A DNA stretch of 57,063 bases from Aminivibrio sp. (GTDB lineage: Bacteria > Synergistota > Synergistia > Synergistales > Aminobacteriaceae), in the NCBI RefSeq assembly GCF_016756745.1, contig NZ_JAESIH010000068.1, forward strand, positions 1 through 57,063, in the 5' to 3' direction. The notes beneath the pieces were generated by a model that saw only the letters and a list, made by a program, of their open reading frames with translations, did no database searches and had not been told where the DNA came from. Shown here one piece after another: positions 4,244-56,361 of this stretch (position 1 is the stretch's first letter; each line of letters begins with the position of its first letter). Made by a program: the position numbers and the translations under genes.

Positions 4244-4277
4244 AAAAAAATGCCTCTCCCCATACCGCAGGAAAGGC
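4244..4277 (-). terminator. Leader terminator in front of tupB
   Basis: On the minus strand TGCCTTTCC pairs with GGGGAGAGGCA (one mismatch, eight-base loop region) and is followed by seven T residues. It ends about 20 bases before the tupB start and lies between the tupBC promoter and its first gene, so it can only act as a regulated attenuator. Confidence 0.75.
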
Positions 4278-4395
4278 ACGCTTTGCGTCCTTCCCTCCTT
4301 GCCGTGCGGGAGGCGCTTCCGTTTCCGGGAGCACCCTGTCGGCCATGAATCCGTAGGCTGCCGCCTGTAGGTTTCATGGCTCGGAGGGACCGTCC
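4278..4395 (-). promoter_or_regulatory. Structured leader RNA, candidate Moco/Tuco riboswitch
   Basis: Between the predicted start of transcription and the tupB terminator the minus strand encodes a dense set of helices. One pairs GAGCCATGAA with TTCATGGC around ACAGGC/GCCTAC. Another pairs CCTCCC with GGAGGG. A third is ACGC-AAA-GCGT next to the terminator. The order of conserved-looking purine-rich strings (CTCCGAGCC, GAAGCGCCTCCC, GGAGGGAAGGACGC) and the position ahead of a tungstate transporter fit the molybdenum/tungsten cofactor RNA class. Established knowledge: that class is found ahead of Mo/W transport and cofactor genes. The class assignment is from memory of the motif, not a covariance search. 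A structured attenuator of another class is the alternative. Confidence 0.55.
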
Positions 4396-4402
4396 GCGGG
4401 AT

Positions 4403-4431
4403 ATTGTACCCTGCCCCTTTCCTGAAGGCAA
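4403..4431 (-). promoter_or_regulatory. Sigma70-type promoter of tupBC
   Basis: Read on the minus strand, TTGCCT (4431-4426) and TACAAT (4408-4403) are separated by exactly 17 bases. Transcription would begin near 4396, just ahead of the structured leader. Confidence 0.6.
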
Positions 4432-4444
4432 CCGGAAGGAGCGG

Positions 4445-4610
4445 CCTAAATCCGCAGGCAGCGGGGAGTGTCACCAGTGCTCGCTTGGGCCGCCGGTGCA
4501 GATTGTCGTCCTTGACAACTGCACCTGAAACCGACATCCGTGTCGGTTTCTCTCCCCCGGGCGCTGTGCCCGGCGACACTCCTTCTGCCTGAAAAATTTG
4601 CGGATTTAGG
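4445..4610 (+). repeat. Dispersed palindromic intergenic repeat, copy A (full length)
   Basis: A 166-bp element bounded by CCTAAATCCGCAGG and TTTGCGGATTTAGG. It contains three strong hairpins: GTGCAG..TTGTC/GACAACTGCAC, GAAACCGACA/TGTCGGTTTC (10-bp perfect stem) and CCGGGC/GCCCGG. The sub-terminal strings GGGAGTGTCACC and GGCGACACTCC are also inverted. The same element occurs inverted at 40534-40698 and in partial form at 27925, 36890, 46225 and 46411. The right end lies just before a TACAAT (4623-4628) that may be the -10 box of the downstream isochorismatase-family gene. No coding potential is seen. Confidence 0.85.
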
Positions 4611-40533: not shown

Positions 40534-40752
40534 CCTAAATCCGCAGGTTTTTCAGGCAGAGGGAGTGTCGCCGGGCACAGCGCCCGGGCCGAGAAACCGA
40601 CACGGATGTCGGTTTCAGGTGCAGTTGTCAAGGACGACAATCTGCACCCCCCGCCCAAGCGTTCCCCGGTGACACTCCCCGCTGCCTGCGGATTTAGGAC
40701 ACTCCCCGCTGCCTGCGGATTTAGGACACTCCCCGCTGCCTGCGGATTTAGG
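40534..40752 (-). repeat. Dispersed palindromic repeat, copy B, with three tandem 27-bp ends
   Basis: 40534-40698 is copy A in inverted orientation: CCTAAATCCGCAGG, GAGGGAGTGTCGCCGGG, the GAAACCGACA/TGTCGGTTTC hairpin, GTGCAGTTGTC/GACAATCTGCAC and GGTGACACTCCCCGCTG. The right-hand terminal unit (ACACTCCCC...GGATTTAGG, 27 bp) is repeated at 40672-40698, 40699-40725 and 40726-40752 without a change. A TAGAAT shortly after the last unit could be the -10 box of the following gene. Confidence 0.88.
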
Positions 40753-52143: not shown

Positions 52144-53451
52144 TCAGTCGGCAAACACCGTCTGCTCGGAAATCTCCGTCTGAAGCGCCTTCAGGGATTT
52201 CTCCACCAGGCGGCGCCGGATTTCCTTCTCTTCCTCCATGGTCCTGGTGGGGTCGCCGAGAGGATGGGGGATGGCAATGGCGGGAACGATCCTGTTGGCT
52301 CCCACGGTGAGGGAGATGGGAACTATGGTGCACACGTGAACCACGGGCAGGCCTGCACGCTCGATTTCCTTGACCATCGTTGCGCCGCAACGAGTGCAGG
52401 TTCCTCAGGTGGATGTGAGGATGACGGCGGTCACTCCGTCGGCGATGAGCCTCCGGGCTATCTCGGCGCCGAACTTCTTGGCGCTCGCCACCGCCGTGCC
52501 GTTGCCCACGGTGGTGTAGAACTTGTTGTGGAGTTTCTTGAAAACGCCTTCCTTCTCCATGTCGCGAAGAACGTCCACGGGGAGGACCCTGTCGGCGTCC
52601 TGATCGGCGTAGGTGGCGTCGTAGCCGCCGTGGGCCGTGCAGTAGCGGTCGGCGGTGAGGTCCATAACGCCGGTGATGTCGTACTCGCCGAACTTGCTGG
52701 CGCTGGATGCCTCGATGTGGTCGGGGTTGCCCTTGGGGCAAATGCCGCCGGAGGTGACCAGGGCGATGACCGCGTTCTTCATGTCCTTGATCGCCGGATT
52801 GGGGGCCACCCTGTCGAATACGGGCATGGGATACTCGGTGACGAAGGGCTCTCCCTTCAGTTTGGCGGTGAACATGTCCACCGCCCGCTCGGCGGCGAGC
52901 TTGTCGTAGAACTTGTTCTTCCTGACGCCCCGTTCGATATAACCTTCCTCCGCGGGGGTGCCGAGCTTCTCGCCCTTCAGGAGCTTCAGGACGAGGGCCG
53001 CCATGGCGGGTATCGCTTTCCTCATGCCTGCGGCGCTGTCCGGAGTTTCCACGATGTAAAAGCTCTTTTTGTACATCTCCACGCCGGGATTCTCGGGATA
53101 CATTCCGGAGACCGCAGGAATGCGGAGCTGCTTCACCGCTGCCTCGCACACGGCGCCGCAGGCGGTTCCGTAGCGGCCGGCGTTGAAGGCGGGCCCTGCC
53201 ACCACGGCGTCGGGCTTGTACTTCTTCATCATGTCGATGATCTCGGCGCCTGCCTTCTCCATGTTGGAGGCGAAGTAGGAGTCGCCGCAGATCACGGTGG
53301 CCACTATTTCAGCATCGGCTCCGAGAGCCGCCTTCAGAGCCGTTCCGGGCCCGACTATTCCCTCGCGGATCTCGGGAGCGATGTCCGCTTTCTCTTCGCC
53401 TCCGATGCCGGCGTAGAACTGGTTTATATAATGAATGATCCGGTATGACAC
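52144..53451 (-). CDS. grdB: Glycine reductase component B, selenoprotein subunit GrdB (in-frame UGA = Sec)
   Basis: One 435-residue protein is interrupted by an in-frame TGA at 52407-52405, codon 349, in the family motif TSTUGTCTRCG. Sec followed by CxxC is the known GrdB redox site, and the frame continues with VKEIERAGLPVVHVCTIVPISLTVGANRIVPAIAIPHPLGDP, which is standard GrdB. N-terminal features are IIHYINQFYAGIGGEEKAD and TVICGDSYFASN. With GrdE it binds glycine as a Schiff base and hands the carboxymethyl group to GrdA. A SECIS-like hairpin follows the UGA. Automatic calling would split this gene at the UGA. Confidence 0.95.
52377..52393 (-). promoter_or_regulatory. SECIS-like hairpin for grdB Sec insertion
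   Basis: TCGTTGC-GGC-GCAACGA, a 7-bp perfect stem with a 3-base loop containing G, starts 11 bases after the UGA within the coding sequence. This is the expected place for a bacterial SECIS read by SelB. Confidence 0.7.
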
Positions 53452-56063: not shown

Positions 56064-56167
56064 TCAACTGCCTCCCTATGCCTATAGGTAAGACACTCTC
56101 TGTCGCATAGCCCCGGAGAGGAGGGGAAACCGCATCGGGGGAGCTATTCATTTCAGAGATCCGTCCG

Positions 56168-56263
56168 GCCGCAATCCTTTCGCCTGAGAGTTTCCGACCG
56201 CCCTGCCGGGCCGGCCTTGCCCCTTCGGCGCTTTCCTGTGTGCTGGAAAGTCTCTCTTGCGGC
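56168..56263 (-). promoter_or_regulatory. Glycine riboswitch, single aptamer visible
   Basis: Minus-strand sequence has the glycine aptamer hallmarks: P1 GCCGCAA/TTGCGGC (7 bp), AAGAGAG after P1, a central GCGCCGAAGGGGCAAG and the 3' CTCTCAGGCGAAAGGA. A second complete aptamer is not visible, although CTATGC/GCATAG and GACAGAGAGTGTC hairpins follow before the grdX Shine-Dalgarno. A CCCCTCC stretch could pair with the AGGGAGG, so translational control of grdX is plausible. Established knowledge: this class binds glycine and commonly controls glycine use. Confidence 0.9.
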
Positions 56264-56361
56264 GTTCATCCGGAGATCACGTTTATTTTACACAATGAGA
56301 AAAAGGAGTCAAGCTTTTTGTGAACGAAACAACAAAATGAATTTCAGGGCCGGGCAGAGGA

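Follow-up and report, generated by a model that had tools for sequence, protein, structure and literature searches.

A P3-lacking Moco RNA ahead of tupBC in Aminivibrio sp. and a candidate ON-type variant ahead of tungsten enzymes

What kind of RNA lies between the promoter and the first gene of tupBC in Aminivibrio sp., and how might it act on tungstate uptake? The DNA in question (the window) is the whole 57,063-nucleotide stretch of contig NZ_JAESIH010000068.1, and the leader features lie on its minus strand. A sequence-only reading had listed a promoter TTGCCT-N17-TACAAT, about 120 nt of nested helices, an intrinsic terminator with seven Ts and the tupB Shine-Dalgarno, with tupBC as the genes downstream. 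It had read the leader as a possible Moco/Tuco riboswitch and had allowed for a divergent or new class. As an observation, this is correct almost to the base.

The tupBC leader and its surroundings

The best NCBIfam model for 4224-3529 (minus strand) is the tungstate ABC transporter permease TupB (1.4e-80), and that for 3532-2849 (minus strand) is the ATP-binding protein TupC (4.7e-54), each with a score below the model's strict cut-off; the two genes share 4 bases where tupB ends and tupC begins. The GTG start of tupB (4224-4222) is preceded by the Shine-Dalgarno sequence AAGGAGG at 4237-4231, and relatives, the closest being Synergistaceae MAGs with 94% identity, align with TupB from residue 1. 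Because a 300-aa open reading frame (4431-3529) is also listed, running open from TTG 4431 through tupB, the leader could be taken as coding sequence for an N-terminal extension of TupB. However, neither the TupB model nor the relatives reach upstream of about 4221, and the promoter, the Shine-Dalgarno sequence and the RNA covariation described below all argue against an extension, which is left with next to no likelihood.

The sigma-70-type promoter occupies 4431-4403, with the -35 hexamer TTGCCT at 4431-4426, a spacer of 17 nt and the -10 hexamer TACAAT at 4408-4403. The promoter scan gave 1 site against 0.3 expected in shuffles, and both hexamers are identical across the leaders of four related genomes, where the spacers vary. 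The transcript 4405-4222 folds at -81 kcal/mol (z = -3.97; 1 of 200 dinucleotide shuffles was equally good), in keeping with the nested helices, which prove to be a leader RNA of 119 nt (4398-4280). Terminator-like sites number 3 in the region against 1.5 expected, which is weak evidence taken alone; the hairpin at 4279-4250, followed by the U-tract TTTTTTT at 4250-4244, is kept in sister leaders.

Just upstream of the promoter, at 4445-4610 (minus strand), is a stretch that also folds well (z = -5.5). It is a palindromic, MITE-like repeat of a 160-bp class with the terminal inverted repeat CCTAAATCCGC. A second copy lies in the window at 40534-40693 (plus strand), the genome as a whole holds 58 matches (full-length copies, partial copies and fragments), and a check of eight copies by eye showed 5-bp flanking target duplications in seven. 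The tupBC -35 box stands 13 bp downstream of the repeat's end; in two sister genomes the same site is empty. The dispersed copies, the target duplications and this absence were the grounds for rejecting 4445-4610 as a second regulatory RNA. The repeat shares with TwoAYGGAY RNA (RF01731) two hairpins with GGAY loops, and its match to that family falls just short of the gathering score (42.4 bits, threshold 43); it differs in that the match here is the inside of a dispersed element bounded by terminal inverted repeats and flanked by target duplications. The repeat is probably mobile DNA that inserted next to the promoter and is not part of the switch, with a possible effect on promoter strength. 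(Elsewhere the minus strand of the window carries a match to the bacterial selenocysteine insertion element SECIS_4 (RF01990) at 52367-52404 with 58.4 bits, a glycine riboswitch aptamer (RF00504) at 56162-56269 with 63.3 bits, and a tmRNA gene at 1064-1892, directly downstream of an smpB-looking open reading frame.)

A Moco RNA that lacks P3

The leader is a member of a known riboswitch class. Rfam's Moco RNA model (RF01055) matches 4398-4280 from end to end (model positions 1-135 of 135) with 71.1 bits and E = 3e-15, against a gathering score of 36 bits, and no second riboswitch family among the Rfam covariance models scores above its threshold in this stretch. The junction consensus CUCCGAG / GGAAAC / AAGGAG is present around P1, P2, a P4 with a GNRA cap (GAAA) and P5, while the positions of the P3 stem, between P2 and P4, are deleted in the alignment. 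The gene context is also that of the family, with the window copy before tupBC and other copies before tupA, aldehyde:ferredoxin oxidoreductase (AOR) and Mo-hydroxylase genes, and predicted alternative pairings couple the expression platform to P1. Nothing was found in favor of a new riboswitch class unrelated to Moco RNA, as the weak match to RNaseP-T (18 bits against a gathering score of 60) is at chance level; such a class is contradicted by the end-to-end RF01055 match and has virtually no probability. The reservation in the sequence-only reading about a divergent or new class can thus be dropped in favor of an ordinary P3-lacking Moco RNA.

That reading had proposed two checks, the RF01055 search just given and a covariation analysis of tup leaders, and the second points the same way as the first. 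The window's own genome and its relatives, 61 genomes in all, yielded 99 RF01055 matches, with at least one match in 36 of them. From 49 distinct RNAs of this collection that do not precede tup genes a covariance model (R1), independent of the curated one, was built and searched against the window and against 80 loci that surround tupB homologues in other genomes. R1 scores the window leader at 75.5 bits (1e-19) and finds 27 Moco RNAs at the 80 loci, including most of the Synergistota tup loci; the record titles of the 27 read Synergistaceae, Synergistales, Synergistes, Synergistota, Thermovirga, Thermovirgaceae or Acetomicrobium. Within these 28 RNAs (window plus 27), 17 of 25 pairs show two-sided changes, 95% of pair cells hold standard pairs, and the covariation score is 0.54, compared with 0.19 in shuffled controls and no more than 0.13 after sliding of the partner strand, in an alignment that was fitted to the model and is biased towards its structure.

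A predicted termination switch and its ligand

How such an aptamer could act on tupBC is suggested by the pairings open to the 3' strand of P1. In the RF01055 alignment and the constrained fold, the 5' strand CCCTCC (4388-4383) pairs with the 3' strand GGAGGG (4298-4293). The latter is shared with a predicted antiterminator, whose 5' arm AGGGAAGGACGC (4296-4285) pairs with the 5' arm of the terminator (4279-4269) at -18.7 kcal/mol by RNAduplex, with z of about -2.3 relative to shuffles. This pairing is also present in sister leaders, and over 70 leaders the complementarity between the P1 3' strand and the terminator arm has a mean z of -0.9, which is indicative, since the sequences are related. 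In constrained folds P1 is compatible with the terminator, and the antiterminator excludes both. Because P1 and the antiterminator are mutually exclusive in this way, a P1 stabilised by ligand would give termination. Binding of the cofactor (most likely Tuco, the tungsten form, possibly Moco or both) would close P1, 4388-4383 with 4298-4293, and make its 3' strand unavailable to the antiterminator, so that the terminator 4279-4250 would form and tungstate uptake would be off; without ligand, the antiterminator could form and tupBC would be transcribed. This OFF direction is the one expected for an uptake system.

The energies allow another reading, in which the terminator merely lowers tupBC expression as a constitutive attenuator and the aptamer is decayed or unused. 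The state with P1 and the terminator (-75.6 kcal/mol, compared with -67.2 kcal/mol for the antiterminator) is indeed the predicted minimum without ligand, and the leaders at loci L170, L160 and L032 show little or no energy difference between the two states. A decayed aptamer, however, fits poorly with an intact consensus, with compensatory change that keeps the pairs in relatives, and with orthologous leaders that keep the antiterminator complement, and this reading is improbable. Since the static energies favor P1 plus terminator, the unliganded default of a working switch would have to depend on folding kinetics or on partial folding. Both the direction of regulation and the ligand are inferred from these pairings and from gene context. 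Taken together, the evidence argues that a P3-lacking RF01055 riboswitch very probably controls tupBC by transcription termination, OFF with cofactor, which is most likely Tuco.

The other Moco RNAs bear on which cofactor is sensed. The window's own genome has five RF01055 matches, of which the four outside the window lead tupA (NCBIfam TupA, 1e-95), a Mo-hydroxylase (molybdopterin-dependent aldehyde oxidoreductase by NCBIfam), a response regulator and a tungsten-type AOR; the RNA ahead of tupA also lacks P3. Contig C45, which bears a modB-like gene (187 bits, over the modB cut-off), has no RF01055 match. Across the 61 genomes there are 94 distinct RNAs, 40 of them before tupA- or tupB-type genes. 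At most tup loci the RNA stands ahead of genes in the order tupABC; in the nearest relatives of the window it stands directly ahead of tupB.

Several further arrangements were seen. Moco RNAs occur in tandem upstream of tup genes (L052:1497-1983, L056:1501-1988 and L070:1527-2010) and back to back on opposite strands (L044:2543-2936, and C188:5708-6089 of genome G036). One family of response regulators is directly preceded by Moco RNAs at eight loci (L012, which is C76:14043-14157 of the window's own genome, and L180, L138, L162, L169, L164, L174 and L040), a TRAP-transporter-like gene coming next at L012. At L165 and L177 the RNA precedes a periplasmic binding protein gene, FecB/BtuF-like by eye, perhaps of a Mol-type molybdate/tungstate uptake system.

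Regulski et al. (2008) counted 58 RNAs without P3 among 176 Moco RNAs and found Tuco-related genes in 17 of the 19 organisms carrying such RNAs, a correlation between P3 absence and use of the tungsten cofactor (PMC2408646). Deletion of P3 from the E. coli Moco RNA abolished regulation (PMC2408646), so deletion alone is presumably no specificity switch. P3 is missing from nearly all Synergistota Moco RNAs examined, including those before Mo-hydroxylases, and its absence is therefore no marker of the gene's metal here. That the window RNA senses Tuco, alone or in preference, is moderately favored because of the tungstate-transporter context and the contrast with modB. Sensing of Moco by the same class of RNA, or of both cofactors with no discrimination, is a real though lesser possibility: P3-less RNAs precede Mo-hydroxylase genes at 17 loci in the same genomes, and such a downstream gene is, by NCBIfam, a molybdopterin-dependent aldehyde oxidoreductase. 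Against it stand the presence of the RNA at both tungstate-transport loci of the genome, its absence from the contig with the modB-like gene, and the published tie between P3 loss and Tuco. The leader would make tungstate uptake in Synergistota subject to feedback from the cofactor through a known class of riboswitch, one RNA class being reused across a small Mo/W regulon.

A variant ahead of tungsten enzymes and the comparison with known RNAs

The weakest RF01055 match of the genome, at C43:36782-36892 (plus strand; locus L013/L190) with 40.9 bits, lies before AOR. This RNA and four similar ones in relatives are all exactly 111 nt long and share a set of departures. Four of the five have the P1/P2 junction CUUCGAC in place of the CUCCGAG of ordinary Moco RNAs. 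All have a P2 without the CCUA/AYGG motif, P4 loops that are GNRA other than GAAA, and a P5 with G-C/C-G rather than C-G/C-G pairs, followed by GCAAAG rather than GGAAAG. A covariance model (R2) built from these five picks out a group in Synergistota with 64-100 bits and lengths of 95-97 nt, whereas ordinary Moco RNAs reach at most 58 bits under R2 and are mostly at least 102 nt long. R2 also found a few clear members among 395 sampled genomes from the phylum of Desulfacinum infernum; in 16 tupB-bearing genomes outside Synergistota it gave two matches, the better of which has the ordinary GGAAAC loop. The set so defined comprises 28 distinct aptamers from Synergistota and the Desulfacinum phylum, chosen by score and length, and its split from ordinary RNAs rests on those two measures. 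With 27 of the 28 aligned, the covariation score is 0.50, compared with 0.21 when shuffled and at most 0.17 when slid.

The genes behind these RNAs, mostly called by eye outside the window's own genome, are for the most part AOR genes; behind two variants lies a gene whose best model is that of the tungsten-cofactor radical SAM maturase (TIGR04317, with one of the two genes tested), and in the Desulfacinum phylum most variants precede a formate dehydrogenase-like gene. The expression platform differs as well. A single terminator finder, used on both sets, places the 5' arm of the terminator on the 3' strand of P1 in 22 of 22 variants with a scored terminator and in 3 of 69 ordinary Moco RNAs (Fisher p = 3e-18, which is overstated because the sequences are related). 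A ligand-stabilised P1 should prevent termination when the terminator is built on the P1 3' strand, and the variant should thus have an ON-type architecture.

These features suggest a two-sided regulon, in which ordinary P3-less Moco RNAs would shut tungstate uptake (tupA, tupBC) while the variant, marked by its changed P1/P2 junction, the loss of the tetraloop-receptor motif from P2 and GNRA loops that are mostly not GAAA, would turn tungsten enzymes (AOR, formate dehydrogenase) ON. We put this forward tentatively, as a reading that could well hold and that stops just short of probable: the tupBC leader would be the OFF half, and the variant a separate, undescribed cofactor-sensing subclass, possibly a selective Tuco sensor. 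The RF01055 model already catches the variant above threshold, and no description of it was found in the open-licence full-text literature. The tupBC leader itself is ordinary in kind, and what makes it interesting is chiefly the ON variant paired with it: an ordinary OFF and a variant ON RNA in one genome would form natural sensor pairs, which makes discrimination between W and Mo cofactors testable.

Two known RNAs invite comparison. Moco-II (RF01713) shares with the window RNA a molybdenum-related name and the standing of a candidate cis-regulator; it differs in being listed for Proteobacteria (PMC2864571), and it was rejected as an identity, with no match in the window or at the AOR-linked loci. 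The close relative is the 'Tuco' subtype of RF01055, with which the window RNA shares P1, the P2 bulge motif CCUA/ACGG, the GAAA-capped P4, the P5 loop, the junction CUCCGAG...AAGGAG, the lack of P3, a terminator-type platform and a W/Mo gene context. It differs from the subtype of 2008 in its host, Synergistota being absent from the groups named in the abstract of that paper, and in its gene pair, which is tupBC without tupA, the latter lying elsewhere in the genome behind its own copy of the RNA.
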